DNA from: Herpetosiphon aurantiacus DSM 785
GTDB lineage: Bacteria > Chloroflexota > Chloroflexia > Chloroflexales > Herpetosiphonaceae
Reading direction: 5' to 3'
Assembly: GCA_000018565.1 (NCBI GenBank)
Contig: CP000875.1
Location: 3,673,199 to 3,737,198 of the forward strand
Length of the DNA stretch: 64,000 nucleotides
In this document: in pieces, positions 26,250 to 34,105 of the stretch
Position numbering within the stretch: the stretch's first letter is position 1
Layout of the letters: each line of letters opens with the position of its first letter
Made by a program: the position numbers and the translations under genes
Notes under the pieces: model-generated
The model's input: the letters and a program-made list of their open reading frames with translations, nothing else
Database searches by the model: none
What the model was told of the DNA's origin: nothing

Positions 26250-27584
26250 ATGAGTAATTCTGTCCGTGAACGGATGCATGTCACCGCCAAACCCAAGGAA
26301 CGTGCCCTATTAGTCGGGGGCGATATCTATAATAATCGCGAAGCTTGGCACATCGACGATTCACTTGATGAATTGGCGTTACTGGCCGATACTGCTGGAC
26401 TCGAGGTGGTTGGCACGGTTTCGCAAAAGCTTGATCATCCCAATCCCAAAACCTATATCGGGCCAGGTAAAGTGCGCGAAGTTGCTGATTTGCGTTCGGA
26501 AACGCCCTACGATGTGGTGATTTTCGATGAGGAGCTTTCGCCTTCGCAAGCCCGCAACCTCGAAGAAGCAATCAAAGTTAAAGTGATCGATCGCACAACC
26601 TTGATTTTGGATATTTTTGCCCAACACGCTCGCACCCGTGAAGGGAGTTTGCAGGTGGAGTTGGCGCAATACGATTATTTGCTGCCGCGTTTGCGCCGCG
26701 CTTGGACCCACCTTGAGCGCCAATCTGGCGGTGGTGGCGGTGGTTCGGGGGTCGGGGTTGGGTTGCGCGGGCCTGGTGAAACCCAGCTCGAAAGTGACCA
26801 ACGAATAATTGGCAAACGCATCGCCTTGTTGAAAGAACAATTGGCTGATGTGCATCGTCATCGCGAATTGTATCGCCAAAACCGCCAAGAATCGGGCTTG
26901 CCAATTATTTCGGTGGTTGGCTACACCAACGCTGGCAAATCGACCTTGCTCAATCGTTTGGCTCAAGCCGATGTGCTGGCAGCCGATATGCTGTTTGCCA
27001 CGCTCGACCCAACCACCCGCAAAGTGGCCTTACCTGGTGGTCGCGCAGTTTTGATGACTGATACGGTCGGATTTATTCAACGCTTGCCAACTGCCTTGGT
27101 CGCTGCATTCCGCGCTACCTTGGAAGAAATTGCCGAAGCCGATGTGTTATTGCACGTTTTGGATCTGACCCATGCCAATGTTGAAGAGCAATTCAAAACC
27201 GTGATTGATACGCTCAGCGAACTCAAAGTGCAGGATAAGCCAATTCTGACCGTGTTCAACAAAATCGACAAGATCGATAGCCCCAGCGATGCCGAAATTG
27301 TGCGTATGATCACAGAGTTGGGCTTGCCGATCGATCGTTGGGTGGCGATTTCGGCTCAACAAAACATTGGAATTGATCGCTTACAAACCGCGATTGAACA
27401 GATGTTGATGGAGCGTATGGTTAAATTTGAGGTCATGATTCCCTATCGAGCCAACGAGCTGGTAGCGCTTTGGCATGAACGTGGGATGATCGAAAGCGAA
27501 GAATTTGGCGCTGAAGGCACAACCTTGCGTGGTGCAGTGCCCCGCCAATTTGCCCATCGCTTCGAGCCATATCGCGTAAAATAA
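26250..27584 (+). CDS. hflX: Ribosome-associated GTPase HflX
   Basis: The 444-residue protein has the HflX N-terminal domain (TYIGPGKVREV near 70-80, FDEELSPSQARNLE), the hallmark GLRGPGETQLE, and a G domain with GYTNAGKST, DTVGFI and NKID. The glycine-rich linker before the hallmark (GGGGGGSG) is usual. HflX binds 50S subunits and splits or rescues stalled or stressed ribosomes. AAGGAGATCT precedes the ATG. It is a single gene ending at a strong terminator. Confidence 0.97.
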   Translation: MSNSVRERMHVTAKPKERALLVGGDIYNNREAWHIDDSLDELALLADTAGLEVVGTVSQKLDHPNPKTYIGPGKVREVADLRSETPYDVVIFDEELSPSQARNLEEAIKVKVIDRTTLILDIFAQHARTREGSLQVELAQYDYLLPRLRRAWTHLERQSGGGGGGSGVGVGLRGPGETQLESDQRIIGKRIALLKEQLADVHRHRELYRQNRQESGLPIISVVGYTNAGKSTLLNRLAQADVLAADMLFATLDPTTRKVALPGGRAVLMTDTVGFIQRLPTALVAAFRATLEEIAEADVLLHVLDLTHANVEEQFKTVIDTLSELKVQDKPILTVFNKIDKIDSPSDAEIVRMITELGLPIDRWVAISAQQNIGIDRLQTAIEQMLMERMVKFEVMIPYRANELVALWHERGMIESEEFGAEGTTLRGAVPRQFAHRFEPYRVK

Positions 27585-27593
27585 GCCATATCC

Positions 27594-27640
27594 AAACACT
27601 GGGTTAGATTAATTATCAATTTAACCCAGTGTTTTTTATT
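27594..27640 (+). terminator. Rho-independent terminator of hflX
   Basis: Perfect 13-bp arms at 27594-27606 and 27622-27634 with the second arm running into a T tract (27632-27637). It sits 10 bases after the hflX stop. Confidence 0.92.
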
Positions 27641-27656
27641 GATAATTGATGTGTTC

Positions 27657-27688
27657 CCTCGCCCACAGCAGCGGGCGAGGTTTTTTTT
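27657..27688 (+). terminator. Second terminator-like hairpin after hflX
   Basis: CCTCGCCC at 27657-27664 pairs with GGGCGAGG at 27673-27680, followed by eight T. The arms resemble part of the dispersed palindromic repeats, which suggests a repeat unit recruited as a back-up terminator. Confidence 0.75.
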
Positions 27689-27746
27689 AGTTTAATGGTT
27701 CAGCCTTGAGCGATTCAACCATTGCTAGCTTTGCTGCTTTCGTGAG

Positions 27747-29702
27747 TTATTGTCGCATTCCCCACAACTGTATTTGCCCGCCTTCAATCGCTAGATAAAG
27801 CCGATTATCAGGCGAAAGCATGCCTTGTTTGATCCGATACATTGGCATTCCATCGCTGAGTCGATAGACAATCGCTGTATGATCAGGCAAATTAACCGGA
27901 ATGATCATAAAATCAGCATTGTTAACGATTTGGATAGGAACACTTTTTCGATATGATTGATACCTTATATTATCATAATCAATCGCAAATTGACCTTCAA
28001 CTGCGCCAAAAGTTCTGACAATACTTAAATCGTTGCGATTAAGCAATGCTGCAATAATTGACTGAGGATTTTCCTCGAAGCTTGCAATAATGGAATTATT
28101 ATCGCTGCTAAATGATAATTCTCTGACTGGATACGGAAATATCCTAGCTTGAATAAATGATTTAAGCGCTAGATCGTAGATCTGTAATTCGTTATTATTG
28201 AAAATAAAGCCAATTTGCTTCCCATCAGCGCTAAAATAGGCATCATTTAAGGTTTTAGTAACGGTAAAGCTACTATGCAGCTGATCGGCTTGGAAAAGTT
28301 TTAGCGCAAGTGGCTCATTCATTCCAGTAAATTGCTTTTCGCTGGTTACTATCCAATCGTTTGCACCATGAACAATCGCCATGCCCGAAGCTACATCACC
28401 AAAGAATGGCAATCGTTGCTGGCGAATTAATGGTGGATCTTGATTAACCGCCCAAATATTTTCGCCATTGCTGATGCGTTGACCATCGCTACTAAATGTT
28501 GGGCGGGTATAGGTGCGATACATCGTATCAATCGGCTGATTTGGAAAAGTTTTGAAAAGGCGTGCTTGATTCACATCGAGCAATTGAAAACCATCACCCG
28601 TTGCATAGAGGGTATTGTCGGGGCTGAAATTGCCATACGTGTAAGCTGGAATAACCAACGACGTGACAACTGCTGAATTCAAATCGATCAATTGAATCGA
28701 GTGCTGAAAAAACACCGCAGCATAGGTACTATCAGGGCTAAATCGTAGATACAGCGACTGCTCATCAGTATAAATCGTTGTTTGATCGATGACCCGCTCG
28801 ATGGCTACTCCTAAGCCAACCGCTAAACCTGGTGGCGGCTCAAGCTGGGCGAAAAATGCTTGATTTGGGCTATAAGCACCATAACCACCAGCATGATTTG
28901 GAATTGATTGGGTTCCAATGCGTGGTTCACTTGCATCCCATTGGTTCACATCAACCATCTGCTCAGTCTCATCAAGAAACGCGCCTGTTTGGCTTACGTA
29001 ACGGCGAAGCGTTGCCTTAGCTGGAGCAGGATTAATTAAATCGGGGTTGAGCAATAGGTTAATCGTGGCACTATCAGCACTAATGCTAAGGTTGTAGATC
29101 GTTGCCGGAACTTGAGCAACATAGCGTTGCTCTAAACTTGGTAGATCATACACCACAATATTGATCGCCGTTGCAATCGCAATAAATTGATTATTCGGCG
29201 CAATCGCAAGATCAATTACGTCACCCAAACCAATTTTTTGTAAGAGACTGAGGTTAGGCAAGCTTGCCAAATTGATCGTTTCGACACGACGTTCTGGTAA
29301 TAGTACCGGATTGGCATAGGTTGTTTGATCATTCAAATCAAAGGTTAGCGGTGGATCAAGCGTCGTTGGCATAAGGCTTGGCAGTGGCTCGTTGATCAAA
29401 ATTGGATCGGGCAATGGTTCAATGCTAGCTGTAAAAGGGGTTGGGCTTGGTGCTATGGTTGGCTCAACCGTTGGTGTTGCCAAAACTTGGGCCGCCTCAG
29501 TTGGCGTTACTGGCTCGTTGGTTGCTACCAGCGATGGCGTTGCTGAATGCTGGGTTCGTTGGGTTGGGTTTGCTTGGGCTTGAGTTTCAATCGATGCTGT
29601 GATTTGGGCCGTAGCTGTCGATTGGCTTTGGCTTGGTTGACAAGCACTCAGCCCAAGCACAATCGTGCCGCAAAGAAATAATCCCACAAGACGCTTAAAC
29701 AT
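27747..29702 (-). CDS. Large WD40/PD40-like beta-propeller lipoprotein
   Basis: Lipobox LSAC (Cys21) is followed by a roughly 90-residue Thr/Pro/Ser-rich linker, then a propeller of about 500 residues. Repeats of the S-P-D or S-x-D form occur about seven times: YSPNQAFFAQ, FSPDSTYAAVF, FSPDNTLYATG, FSSDGQRIS, FSADGKQIGF, FSSDNNSIIAS and LSPDNRLYLAI. It is probably a seven-bladed surface-anchored propeller; ligand unknown. The ATG follows AAGGAGGAGTT, but that ribosome site lies inside a strong hairpin, so translation may be controlled. Confidence 0.87.
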   Translation of the reverse strand: MFKRLVGLFLCGTIVLGLSACQPSQSQSTATAQITASIETQAQANPTQRTQHSATPSLVATNEPVTPTEAAQVLATPTVEPTIAPSPTPFTASIEPLPDPILINEPLPSLMPTTLDPPLTFDLNDQTTYANPVLLPERRVETINLASLPNLSLLQKIGLGDVIDLAIAPNNQFIAIATAINIVVYDLPSLEQRYVAQVPATIYNLSISADSATINLLLNPDLINPAPAKATLRRYVSQTGAFLDETEQMVDVNQWDASEPRIGTQSIPNHAGGYGAYSPNQAFFAQLEPPPGLAVGLGVAIERVIDQTTIYTDEQSLYLRFSPDSTYAAVFFQHSIQLIDLNSAVVTSLVIPAYTYGNFSPDNTLYATGDGFQLLDVNQARLFKTFPNQPIDTMYRTYTRPTFSSDGQRISNGENIWAVNQDPPLIRQQRLPFFGDVASGMAIVHGANDWIVTSEKQFTGMNEPLALKLFQADQLHSSFTVTKTLNDAYFSADGKQIGFIFNNNELQIYDLALKSFIQARIFPYPVRELSFSSDNNSIIASFEENPQSIIAALLNRNDLSIVRTFGAVEGQFAIDYDNIRYQSYRKSVPIQIVNNADFMIIPVNLPDHTAIVYRLSDGMPMYRIKQGMLSPDNRLYLAIEGGQIQLWGMRQ

Positions 29703-29745
29703 AACTCCTCCTTAGATGCATAGCTCTATCATCTAAGAAGGAGTT
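29703..29745 (-). promoter_or_regulatory. Leader hairpin that covers the ribosome-binding site of the propeller lipoprotein gene
   Basis: Arms of 16 bases at 29703-29718 and 29730-29745 pair with a single C/T difference (a G-U pair in the transcript) around an 11-base loop. On the leftward mRNA the second arm contains AAGGAGG and ends directly at the ATG. No T-run follows, so it is not a normal terminator. Confidence 0.65.
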
Positions 29746-29795
29746 GCGACACGACATCATACGGGGCTGATAGTTGGCTCATAATTAACTGAGAA

Positions 29796-31076
29796 CTAAT
29801 CGGCCTGTTCGCTCAATAAACGCACTTCAGCAGGTTTATTGGCCAGCGCAAACAGCGTATCACCAGCATAGACGACATACAAATATTCGTTATTGCGATA
29901 GCTCCAACGGCGTTGGCTTGACAATGGCGCACCAAGGTTGGCTTCTAAAGCTTTTTTGATAAATGGCAATTTGGCATCGAAGCTTGTATTGATGCGGCTA
30001 TACATGGCACGGTTGATCGTTTCACGTAGCGCGGCATCGGCGGCAGAGGCATTTTGAGCGGCCACAATTGCACTAAGTTGCTTGACTACCGACCAATTGG
30101 TTGTGCCAGTGGCGGCAATTGGCGTATACAGCGCATCCAGCGAGAAAAGTTGGGCTGCATAGGCCGCGCCATCGCCAGCTTGCAAGCGGCTGCTGTTACC
30201 CAACGGCACTCCAACGAGCTTGCGCGGTGGCCGACTGATAAATTGATAAAAGGCTTGATCCGGTCGGTAATCCACGCCCAACGCGCCATAGGTAAATTGC
30301 ATCAAGGCATTATAAACATCTTGATCGGTCAGATCATTGGCGCGAAGCACAATATCCCATTGATTGTATGGGCTAATAATTACATCACGGCCATACACCT
30401 CGCCAGTATAGCGCACGCCCTTCACGCTAAAATCCATGCCAACCCGAATCGGCGAGCCAAGTTTGTTTTTGAAGGCATATTGATGAAACATCCAATCAGG
30501 CCGATATTCACCCTTGGCCAGTTTATAGACTTCGTTGCGCAGTTGTGCGCCAAGGGTATTGGGGCGTGGGCCAGTGCTGGGAAGGCTACTTTCATCAAGC
30601 AATTTCAAGGTATATTCAACACTATAGCCCCGTGGATCATCTTTATAGCCAGGTGCAACCGTGCTATGGGCAAAGAAATAGTCACGATTAATGGGAATCG
30701 CATAGGTATCACGAAAATAGCGAATTAATTCAACCAAGGCTTTGGTTTGGGCAGTAGTGATCGGCGTACCATCATTTGGTCCCTCAACCTCAACTCCAAT
30801 CGCGTATACATTGATTTCGCCGCCGCTATAGCCGCGTGCCCAACTGCGTACTCCAGCATGCCAAGCAATATAGGATTTTTCATTGACGTAGTGATAGGTC
30901 TTACCATCACGGGCAATCAAATAATTATAACTGGAGCGAACTTCGGGCCGCAAATTCCATTCGAGTGAGCCATAGCCCGCCGTTTCGTGTAAAATCACAA
31001 ATTCCGGCTTGAAACTCGTGGTGTTACGGGCGGTTTTGTTGGGGGTTTTGTTGAGATACGAGGTATCAAACTGCAT
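29796..31076 (-). CDS. N-acetylmuramoyl-L-alanine amidase (Amidase_2/PGRP fold) with C-terminal extension
   Basis: The first 180 residues are an Amidase_2 domain. His30 (FVILHETAG) is the first zinc ligand, IAWHAGVRSW and the segment INVYAIGVEVEG mark the core, and FFAHSTVAPGYKDDPRGYS carries the second His and the Asp that replaces Cys. About 240 residues follow that I do not recognise. No signal peptide is visible, so it is either exported by another route or released on lysis. It should cut the bond between MurNAc and L-Ala in peptidoglycan. No phage genes are nearby. Confidence 0.87.
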   Translation of the reverse strand: MQFDTSYLNKTPNKTARNTTSFKPEFVILHETAGYGSLEWNLRPEVRSSYNYLIARDGKTYHYVNEKSYIAWHAGVRSWARGYSGGEINVYAIGVEVEGPNDGTPITTAQTKALVELIRYFRDTYAIPINRDYFFAHSTVAPGYKDDPRGYSVEYTLKLLDESSLPSTGPRPNTLGAQLRNEVYKLAKGEYRPDWMFHQYAFKNKLGSPIRVGMDFSVKGVRYTGEVYGRDVIISPYNQWDIVLRANDLTDQDVYNALMQFTYGALGVDYRPDQAFYQFISRPPRKLVGVPLGNSSRLQAGDGAAYAAQLFSLDALYTPIAATGTTNWSVVKQLSAIVAAQNASAADAALRETINRAMYSRINTSFDAKLPFIKKALEANLGAPLSSQRRWSYRNNEYLYVVYAGDTLFALANKPAEVRLLSEQAD

Positions 31077-31226
31077 ACAAGCTCCTTACATGATGCCAAT
31101 CATTGCATCATTACTACCGCTCCTAATATTCCCGTTGTTAATGTACTACAAAATATAGAAACTAAGGAATTGGTTCAGTGAAGGGCGGGGTACGAATATC
31201 GCTGGTATGAGGAAGCGCCAATCGCC

Positions 31227-31261
31227 ACAAAAAAAGGACGTAGCAAGTTTGCTACGTCCTT
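31227..31261 (-). terminator. Terminator of the tRNA-Lys transcript
   Basis: Arms at 31234-31246 and 31249-31261 (core GGACGTAGC) form a near-perfect hairpin. Read leftward it is followed by a run of T (complement of the A run at 31229-31235). It begins 7 bases after the 3' end of the tRNA. Confidence 0.9.
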
Positions 31262-31267
31262 GATGTT

Positions 31268-31342
31268 TGGTGAGCCGGGTGGGACTCGAACCCACAACCA
31301 GCTGATTAAGAGTCAGATGCTCGACCATTGAGCTACCGGCCC
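31268..31342 (-). tRNA. tRNA-Lys (anticodon CTT)
   Basis: The leftward 75-base cloverleaf has acceptor GGGCCGG pairing with CCGGCTC (one G-U), D arm around GCTCAATGGTCGAGC, anticodon stem CTGA/TCAG with loop CTCTTAA and a T arm with GGTTCGAGTCC. CCA is encoded in the gene. It is the only tRNA in the window. Confidence 0.97.
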
Positions 31343-31461
31343 AAACAGCGTCTGCAAGTATACACAGCCGTTGAATTTTTGTCAAATTATTAACATGAGC
31401 TCAGCATAATGGCTCCAATGCCGATCACCATGATCCCCTAGCGCACTAACCCAACCCCTCA

Positions 31462-32058
31462 TTAAACAAAGGTTTGGGCAGCCAATGGTAAATGCCCAAC
31501 ATCACCATGGCGAATTAAACAACGCCAACCTTGATCGGTAATACTCATCTCAGTTAAACCACAATGTTGAATATCGGCGTTGATCCAATGGGTATTGGCT
31601 GCTCCAAAAATCGCTGCAACTACCGCACTAATCAAATTGCCATGACTCACCAAGAGAATCTGCTCGTCGGCTCGAGCTGGGCCAAAATACTTTTGCCAGA
31701 GGTCAGCAAATTGCGCTGCCCCTGCAGCAACAATCGCAGGCTCAAGTTTGGCAAAAAAGGCTTGGGTCGATTGAGGCAAGGCTTCTTCATTGGGAATCGA
31801 AGGAATTAATTCGAGCAACAATGGCTCAATTTGCAAGGGAATATTCGGATGCTGTTGCTGAAGCCATTGGGCAGTTTCAGTCGCACGAATACTCGGGCTA
31901 TGCCAAATCTGGCTGATCGGTAGCGCAGCCAAGCGCGTTGCCAACGCCTGAGCTTGTTGCTGCCCTAAATCGGTCAACGCTCCATCGGGCATCGCCGATT
32001 CGCCAGCTTGATTGCAATACTGTCCATGGCGAACCAAATAGATTGTCCGTTTAGCCAT
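31462..32058 (-). CDS. Histidine phosphatase family protein (phosphoglycerate-mutase-like)
   Basis: About 198 residues. The catalytic RHG motif sits right at the N-terminus (YLVRHGQYCNQAG), with DLGQQQAQALATRLA, WHSPSIRATETA and the second histidine in ILLVSHGNLI. These are the signatures of histidine phosphatases of the cofactor-dependent mutase-like branch. Substrate unknown: sugar phosphate, nucleotide or phosphoprotein. AAAGGAGG stands before the ATG at 32056-32058. Confidence 0.9.
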   Translation of the reverse strand: MAKRTIYLVRHGQYCNQAGESAMPDGALTDLGQQQAQALATRLAALPISQIWHSPSIRATETAQWLQQQHPNIPLQIEPLLLELIPSIPNEEALPQSTQAFFAKLEPAIVAAGAAQFADLWQKYFGPARADEQILLVSHGNLISAVVAAIFGAANTHWINADIQHCGLTEMSITDQGWRCLIRHGDVGHLPLAAQTFV

Positions 32059-32270
32059 CCAAACCCTCCTTTGATTGATCAGGAGCCTCAGCATAGCAAA
32101 TTTTAGCCGACTGCCAATGATAGCAAACTGAGATCCTCAGCCAAAAAGAGCTAGCAAATGGATCGTACTTTTGGCTATTGACAGCAGCCATTAGCTCTAC
32201 GATGATATGGAAATCCCCAAACTTGTTTCCATGGCGATTTGTTGGCGTTGTTTTAAGGGAATGTGTGATT

Positions 32271-34105
32271 ATGCATATACCAATCCTTTCGCGCATCAGC
32301 ACAAAAATTACCTTAGCCAGTGCGTTCTTGCTGTTTGCAACAATTTTGCTGGTGGTCATTGGGCTATTGCGTGGCTTTGCTCAAACGCGCACCGATGTAA
32401 CCACCGCTAGTCAACATGGTTTGCAAAATCAAGGTCAGGTAGCCTTGTTTGATCTCACGCAAGTTGAGGCCAAATTGCTCAATGCCAACCTTGAGCAAGC
32501 CGCCAGCACGACTCGCCATCTAGTTAGTTTGTTTAATAGCCTTGATCAAGTTCCGAGCCTGAGCTTGGATGACCCATTGAGCCAACTCACAACTGGCCCT
32601 GCCAACAATCGTTTTGATGCTAACCCCGACCGCAAGAGCGATTTAGTGATTTTTGCCAATACGCCTGATAGCGCGTTACTGCGTCAAAACCTACGCGATT
32701 CGCAGATTCTCGATGCGATTTTCCCTGGGGTTTTGGCCAATTTGGGCGATGCGCTAGCAATTTATTATGTTAGCAACGAAGGCATGACCCGCTATTATCC
32801 GGTTTCGAATTTGCAAGATATTGTGCCGTCTGATTTCGATGTGCCCAACGAAAATTTTTATACGATTGTGGCGGCAACCCGCAACCCTGAACGCAAAACC
32901 GTTTGGACAGATATTTACTCGGATGAATTGGGCAAAGGCTTACTAACAACCGTCAGTTCGCCAATTTACCAAGGCGATCAATTTCGTGGCTTTATTGGTA
33001 TCGATATTACACTCAATGAATTTTTGAAACAACTTGATACGATTCCACGCCCAGTAGCTATGCTTTTGTGCTTGATCAACAGGGCGATGTGATTGCTGCG
33101 CCCCAAATTGCGCTCCAAACATTTTTGAATATTCCTAGCTCGCAAACCCTTAGCCCAAGCCAAACCCTCGAACTTCAGATGAACCCCACCACCGCGCCAG
33201 CATTAGCCAGTGTGCTTGAGCGAATGCAGAATAACCAAAGCGGCATTCAAACGCTCCAGGCGAACAATCAAGAACTAGTGGTAGCCAACGCTGCACTCAC
33301 CTCGATCAATTGGCATATTGTGGTGGTTGCGCCTAAAACCGAGATCACCAGTGAAGCCCAAGCGGTCACCGCCACAATCGAAACCAGTTCAGGCCGAATT
33401 GTTGGCAAACTGCTGTGGTTTTTGGCAGCCTTGACTATTATCACCCTGCTAGCGACTTGGTTGATCAGCAATCGGCTGAGTCAGCCAATCGTGGCGTTGG
33501 TGCAAAATACCCAAGCCTTAGCCGAATCGAATCAGTTTGTGCAGTTGCCCGAGCAAAGCAACGATGAGCTAGGATTTTTGGCTCGCGCCTTCAATCAAAT
33601 GGCTAGTAAAGTTCAGTCAGCGCAACAAAGTCTCCAACAAGTCAATCAAAATCTTGAGCAAACCGTGCAGCAACGCACCCATGAGCTAGAACAAGAGCGC
33701 GAATCGTTGCAACAAACCCTTGATCAACTCCAACAGGCCAATAGTACAGTGGCCAAACTGACCGCGCCAATTATTCCGGTGGCCCAAGGCGTGGTGGTTG
33801 TACCAATTACTGGTAGCCTGAATACCGAGCGAATCGAGCAATTGCAACAAGCCATGTTGCGCACTGCTGAGCGCCTACGGATTCATACCGTAATTCTCGA
33901 TGTGACCGGACTTGAAGTTTTGGAAGATTCTGCGACCTTTGTCCGCAGCCTTGATGCCTTGCGCTTGCTTGGTTCAAAAGCAATGTTGGTTGGGGTAAGT
34001 GCCGATTTTGCCCAAGATTTGATTCAGAGCGGCATCAATCTTGATTCAGTTACGACCATGGCCAATCTTCAAGCAGCTGTCCGAGCAACATTAAATCAAG
34101 CCTAG
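32271..34105 (+). pseudogene. Cache-HAMP-coiled-coil-STAS sensor, broken by a one-base frameshift
   Basis: Two overlapping frames make one protein. The first (from ATG 32271) has a membrane helix at 13-35 and an extracytoplasmic Cache-like domain ending GFIGIDITLNEFLKQLDTIP; it then runs into a stop at 33090-33092. The second frame continues the Cache domain (YAFVLDQQGDVIAAP), then a second membrane helix, HAMP (SNRLSQPIVALVQNTQALAE), a long coiled coil and an RsbR-like STAS domain. STAS carries Ser in LEDSA at the usual phospho-site. Adding one C in the CCC at 33050-33052 restores a single reading frame of about 610 residues. It may be a recent mutation or a sequencing error. Confidence 0.85.

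Follow-up and report, generated by a model that had tools for sequence, protein, structure and literature searches.

A conserved hairpin predicted to hide the Shine-Dalgarno sequence of a lipoprotein gene in the genus Herpetosiphon

In phage T4, a stable helix hides the Shine-Dalgarno (SD) sequence of gene e, soc and I-TevI on transcripts derived from upstream, as described in passages of PMC2988022 and PMC3014915. For gene e, a passage of PMC3014915 states that the helix hiding the ribosome-binding site (RBS) lowers synthesis 100-fold. In the FourU and ROSE elements, including that of Yersinia yscW-lcrF, excerpts of PMC3280987 and PMC4166951 place a paired SD in a hairpin between co-transcribed genes. 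According to part of PMC7708055, the E. coli tisB mRNA is translated via a standby site despite a sequestered RBS.

We analyzed a 64,000-nucleotide stretch (the window) of the genome of Herpetosiphon aurantiacus DSM 785 (6.785 Mb, three contigs), in which a hairpin containing the SD directly precedes a lipoprotein gene. The coordinates of the features are summarized in Table 1. As in the T4 leaders, the SD would be hidden by a helix on upstream transcripts and freed by loss of the 5′ strand. The organism, gene and sequence differ; in the passages cited above, transcription from the T4 late promoters begins within the 5′ strand or beyond it, whereas no such start is clearly predicted in Herpetosiphon. 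The paired SD in a hairpin between genes on one putative transcript is also shared with FourU and ROSE elements. However, the lcrF stem contains weak pairs as well as internal loops and is partly open at 37 °C in the excerpts of PMC3280987 and PMC4166951, whereas the Herpetosiphon stem consists of 16 continuous pairs and is predicted to be closed at 80 °C. A stable RBS-hiding structure is common to tisB, as described in that part of PMC7708055, and the Herpetosiphon leader; the standby site is described for tisB.

Table 1 Features of the hairpin locus and of the second lipoprotein leader in the genome of the window.
Feature	Position	Strand	Remarks
Lipoprotein gene	27747..29702	minus	651 aa; ATG at 29702-29700; lipobox LSAC, Pro/Thr-rich linker, WD40-type beta-propeller-like part
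3′ arm with SD AAGGAGG (29707-29713)	29703..29718	minus	Lower 11 positions invariant in 8/8 leaders
Apical part of hairpin	29719..29729	minus	Variable except for conserved AUA on the 5′ side (alignment)
5′ arm AACUCCUUCUUAGAUG, complementary to SD	29730..29745	minus	14-16/16 identical across the ten leader pairs compared
Conserved block CTATCAGNNNCGTAYNATG	29755..29773	minus	In 8/8 leaders; function putative
Gap from amidase stop to lipoprotein start codon	29703..29795	minus	93 nt
Upstream gene, N-acetylmuramoyl-L-alanine amidase (Amidase_2)	29796..31076	minus	426 aa; same strand as lipoprotein gene
Second lipoprotein leader	L165 3674-4813 (G000:C1, about 263.7 kb)

In the mRNA sense, positions 29745-29730 pair with positions 29718-29703, giving 16 pairs including one U-G and an 11-nt apical part, or up to about 21 pairs if apical and flanking pairs are counted. 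The AUG of the lipoprotein gene directly adjoins the stem, the last base of which is the base before the AUG. This confirmed the description in the earlier note, made from the letters of the sequence, of a 16-bp stem with a single G-U that ends at the ATG and carries AAGGAGG in its 3′ arm. The gene lies on the minus strand. An identical stem formed within 141 nt of the mRNA (−46.7 kcal/mol, z −4.1), and none of 200 shuffled sequences was as stable. The plus-strand fold was somewhat weaker, with one A-C mismatch. The statement that no T-run is present was borne out, as the stem is followed by ATGTTTAAG and the site is absent from the list of the terminator scan. An intrinsic terminator was rejected on the same grounds, since ATGTTTAA, ATGTTGAA or ATGTTCAA takes the place of a T-run across the leaders.

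The terminator scan found no terminator-like site between the amidase and lipoprotein genes. A tRNA followed by a terminator-like hairpin is located just upstream of the amidase gene (31234-31342, minus strand); thus, the amidase gene probably begins its own transcript. PDB WD40 proteins were matched by the lipoprotein profile (best match 2ymu, E 3.9e-18), in agreement with the label "propeller" in the earlier note, and the AlphaFold model of the protein was of low confidence (pLDDT 49.8) and mostly beta. The lipoprotein family occurs in six of the nine genomes of its taxonomic family, namely all six of the genus Herpetosiphon. At E 1e-8, six of 301 genomes of the phylum matched, all of them Herpetosiphon, and no relative outside the genus was confirmed when genome contigs were scanned with the lipoprotein. 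The two adjacent genes evolve at very unequal rates (27747-31076 and relatives): the amidase is 92-97% identical to the copy in the window in the four other copies aligned, and the lipoprotein is 28-77% identical.

The energy required to open the SD was compared with that of other genes in the same genome. As background, 1613 ORFs were called mechanically in 2.464 Mb, window included; 916 of them have an SD of 5 nt or longer, and opening it costs 3.49 kcal/mol on average (sd 2.25, 99th percentile 11.4). Freeing the lipoprotein SD costs 19.5 kcal/mol, which is the first rank of the 916. The second rank (19.2 kcal/mol) was a GTG call behind a T-tailed terminator-like hairpin, which we take for a terminator with a miscalled start, and the third was at 13.4 kcal/mol. 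Smaller samples of 470 and 176 ORFs likewise put the lipoprotein gene first. The SD windows are 5-8 nt long and the ranking therefore favors long SDs; freeing the 6-nt AAGGAG alone costs 15.8 kcal/mol for this gene. Lipoprotein genes in general showed no tendency to hide their SD: the median cost of 45 lipoprotein-like ORFs was 3.35 versus 3.15 (Mann-Whitney p 0.39), and a cost of at least 10 kcal/mol was found in 2 of 45 versus 13 of 871 other ORFs (Fisher p 0.17).

When the 5′ arm was shuffled, SD opening cost 4.0 ± 1.8 kcal/mol, and none of 1000 shuffles reached 18 kcal/mol (observed, 18.1 in that frame). The hairpin was found in all six Herpetosiphon genomes, in a total of eight leaders, and the opening cost of these was 18-22 kcal/mol for the 8-nt SD and 10.5-15.9 kcal/mol for AAGGAG alone. 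For RNA beginning at alignment column 57, the cost fell to 5.1-7.9 kcal/mol, and at column 60 it fell to 3.5-5.2 kcal/mol, which is the genome norm; predicted SD accessibility is thus restored once the 5′ arm is removed past CUCCUU. Because starts at columns 57-60 reduce the cost in this manner, removal or opening of the 5′ arm would be the natural mode of release. Using an apparent Boltzmann constant of 0.45 mol/kcal, taken from a passage of PMC3936740, initiation was estimated to drop by approximately 25- to 300-fold for the 6-nt SD and by 900- to 5000-fold for the 8-nt SD relative to the genome-median gene (3.2 kcal/mol), an arithmetic estimate with an energy model derived from E. coli, not from Herpetosiphon.

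The number of leaders exceeds that of genomes, as G004 and G006 carry tandem lipoprotein paralogues, c1 and c2, each with its own leader (loci L003 and L004). The genome of the window (G000) has the c1 gene only. G002, G003 and G005 (loci L006, L005 and L007) have only a c2-type gene, yet a c1-type leader lies ahead of it, and this arrangement suggests recombination between leaders. The gap ahead of the lipoprotein start is 92-93 nt in all eight copies, measured from the c1 stop for the c2 genes. In both c2 leaders (L003 and L004; alignment columns 64-96), the hairpin contains an ATG that shares the reading frame of the lipoprotein (MIDPFSKGGV-M...); in the remaining six leaders, this ATG begins a frame of six codons, the TAA stop of which overlaps the SD.

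The lower 11 pairs of the stem form in 88 of 88 cells of the eight leaders, and 96.9% of 128 cells are paired over the whole 16-bp stem; neither c2 copy can form the upper pairs 62/82 and 64/80. For the lower stem, no leader or genome therefore showed the loss of complementarity that the earlier note, with close relatives in mind, had named as evidence against the hairpin. Within G004 and G006, the c1 and c2 proteins share 30-31% amino-acid identity, with agreement at 36/84 and 24/80 of their 4-fold sites, respectively, whereas their leaders are identical at 15 of 16 positions of the 5′ arm and at 11 of 11 of the lower arm on the SD side. The 5′ arm identity compared with the 4-fold sites gave binomial values of 2.9e-5 and 1.7e-7, with sites taken as independent and 4-fold sites as neutral. 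Gene conversion among leaders may inflate this conservation between paralogues, and the 3′ arm is constrained anyway by its SD function.

Of the two comparative signals that the earlier note had proposed to look for, conservation was found for the lower stem in all eight leaders, with the two upper pairs lost in c2, and covariation was not: none of the 16 stem pairs has substitutions in both of its bases, and 500 of 500 shuffles scored at least as high for covariation as the leaders. The changes at pairs 52/92 (A-U to G-U) and 66/78 (G-C to G-U) remain paired on the mRNA strand, and the fixed pair 58/86 is U-G; all three would read A-C on the opposite strand. We take these G-U-tolerant changes as support, short of proof, for a structure acting as RNA on the coding strand. 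Since no pair changed on both sides, the hairpin is supported by conservation and wobble-compatible changes, not by covariation.

A covariance model of the leader was searched against 82 genomes of the order with stricter filters. It detected only the eight leaders and, as weak further matches, their reverse strand, all in six genomes of one genus, with no match in the other 76. A repeat element was ruled out by this result and by the single match of the leader in its own genome. The pattern CTCCTT...AAGGAG was found 28 times in the nine genomes of the family, eight of which are the lipoprotein leaders. Four matches (L012, L015, L023 and L036; 11.0-15.7 kcal/mol) have T-rich tails after the hairpin and look like terminators. 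One match (L032, 1503-1540, in G006) belongs to a second lipoprotein gene with the SD AAGGAG in the hairpin and a cost of 18.5 kcal/mol, and the remaining matches cost 1.5-9.8 kcal/mol.

This second lipoprotein gene is present in six of the nine family genomes, again all six Herpetosiphon, with 36-87% identity (relatives L149-L154), and its hairpin was found in each of them (10.9-18.5 kcal/mol). Its 11-pair stem is paired in 57 of 66 cells, with one middle pair lost in four of six genomes, and the leader is conserved along its whole length, not in the stem alone (mean column identity, 92%). Selection for pairing is therefore less clear at the second leader.

No known cis-regulatory RNA or riboswitch was matched in Rfam at the gathering score in positions 27000-32500 of the window, apart from the tRNA at 31271-31342. 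The relatives L003 and L005 likewise gave none over the gathering score, with weak sub-threshold matches to microRNA precursors at the L003 leader. Hfq and CsrA were each detected in none of the six Herpetosiphon genomes, and the control genomes were positive in 5 and 3 of 14, respectively; this result does not support a leader controlled by Hfq or CsrA. In the open-licence PMC literature on Herpetosiphon, no report of this leader was found.

From the computed structure, its exceptional stability, its retention across paralogues and the accessibility of the SD after truncation of the 5′ arm, we consider it probable that this conserved hairpin acts in cis as a translational brake on the second gene of an amidase-lipoprotein unit and that loss or opening of the 5′ arm releases the brake. 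The idea of the earlier note that the hairpin hides the RBS is supported by computation in all eight leaders of the six genomes. The 5′ arm CUCCUUCUU would pair with the SD on any transcript with the whole leader, whether it arises by read-through from the amidase gene or begins at the stem base or farther upstream, and the lipoprotein cistron would remain largely untranslated. We infer that the amidase and lipoprotein genes share a transcript and that translation is really low. An RNase cut, transcription initiating within the stem or a helper factor would be the most likely means of release, rather than heat. The target of selection may also be the DNA or a longer RNA, because the block outside the hairpin is conserved as well.

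One alternative, unlikely but deserving consideration, is that the stem is a processing site at which RNase III or another RNase cuts, splitting the amidase message from that of the lipoprotein and exposing the SD. Both the RNase target and the translational switch suggested in the earlier note may apply. A stem of this length and the RNase III encoded in all six genomes, above the curated cut-off, are consistent with it, as is the computed opening of the SD upon loss of the 5′ arm; however, cleavage of both strands of the lower stem could remove the SD as well.

It is rather improbable that the leader is a silencer of read-through transcripts as in T4 gene e and I-TevI, in which upstream transcripts form the hairpin and a promoter start within the stem gives the translatable mRNA. 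The geometry is the same, with the hairpin between genes on the same strand and no terminator-like site between them, and starts at or after columns 57-60 would free the SD. In all eight copies the SD lies by computation in a helix costing 18-22 kcal/mol to open, read-through being assumed, and GATGATA at the top of the arm is kept in all of them, even where its pairing is lost. However, the sole conserved promoter-like hexamer, TAYNAT (29756-29761; columns 35-40), would place the RNA start near columns 46-48, before the stem. Such RNA would still contain the hairpin nearly whole, and the cost from column 46 is 16-22 kcal/mol. TAYNAT has no recognizable −35, and the sigma-70 scan lists no promoter there, in contrast to the conserved promoter-like TTGACT-16-TATAAT upstream of a tatA-like gene, so named by eye from its translation, in four Herpetosiphon genomes (L101-L104, G002-G005).

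We give an equally low probability to the possibility that the 93-nt leader as a whole constitutes a regulatory RNA, undescribed and specific to the genus. In such an RNA, CUAUCA in the conserved block would pair with UGAUAG at the top of the hairpin, forming either a pseudoknot or a competing helix, and the SD would open when a factor or signal shifts the balance. The two segments are complementary in 95.8% of 48 cells, with no covariation among the eight leaders, and shuffling gave a chance value of 1.5%, computed after the pairing had been noticed.

Less likely again is an element acting at the DNA level, a promoter with a palindromic operator for which the RNA hairpin would be incidental. 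The conserved block with TAYNAT in all eight copies and the CTATCA/TGATAG inverted repeat, with centers 42 bp apart, fit this explanation. A search of the nine genomes with the block pattern gave the eight leaders, 11 scattered one-mismatch sites, including the conserved tatA-like promoter, and 13 two-mismatch sites. However, the six of these mismatch sites that were inspected had no such leader, the stem changes tolerated as G-U in the mRNA sense break DNA symmetry, and the SD-complementary part is the most conserved.

Translational coupling through a leader frame, in which a ribosome on the frame from ATGATG (−58) opens the stem and stops just past the lipoprotein start, is highly doubtful. 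A 21-codon frame ending 8 nt into the gene is present in G000 and in the c1 copies of G004 and G006, but it has no SD ahead, stops after two codons in both c2 leaders and, in G002, G003 and G005, continues 56-230 nt into the gene. By inspection, almost every codon that differs between copies encodes another residue, and conserved leader reading frames were rejected.

The RNA thermometer suggested in the earlier note, a stem that melts on warming to free the RBS, did not hold up and is very unlikely. The SD and, in some copies, the AUG lie in a hairpin ending an intergenic leader as in the yscW-lcrF fourU described in part of PMC3280987, but the stem is much too stable: the mean probability that the SD is unpaired, as predicted for the eight copies, is 0.000-0.009 at 37 °C and does not exceed 0.012 at 50 °C or 0.088 at 80 °C. 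The stem also lacks an internal loop close to the SD and a UUUU facing AGGA, and the Rfam matches up to E 5 included no FourU and no ROSE element (27000-32500; relatives L003 and L005).

The proposed translational brake on the lipoprotein cistron belongs to a kind of element that is already known, and the Herpetosiphon hairpin is a new, well-conserved chromosomal case. If this reading is true, a lipoprotein encoded beside a cell-wall amidase would be under a very strong brake in a non-model bacterium without detected Hfq or CsrA, and the brake would be kept better than the protein sequence itself. It would represent a compact case, in a bacterial chromosome, of the RBS sequestration documented in detail for phage T4.
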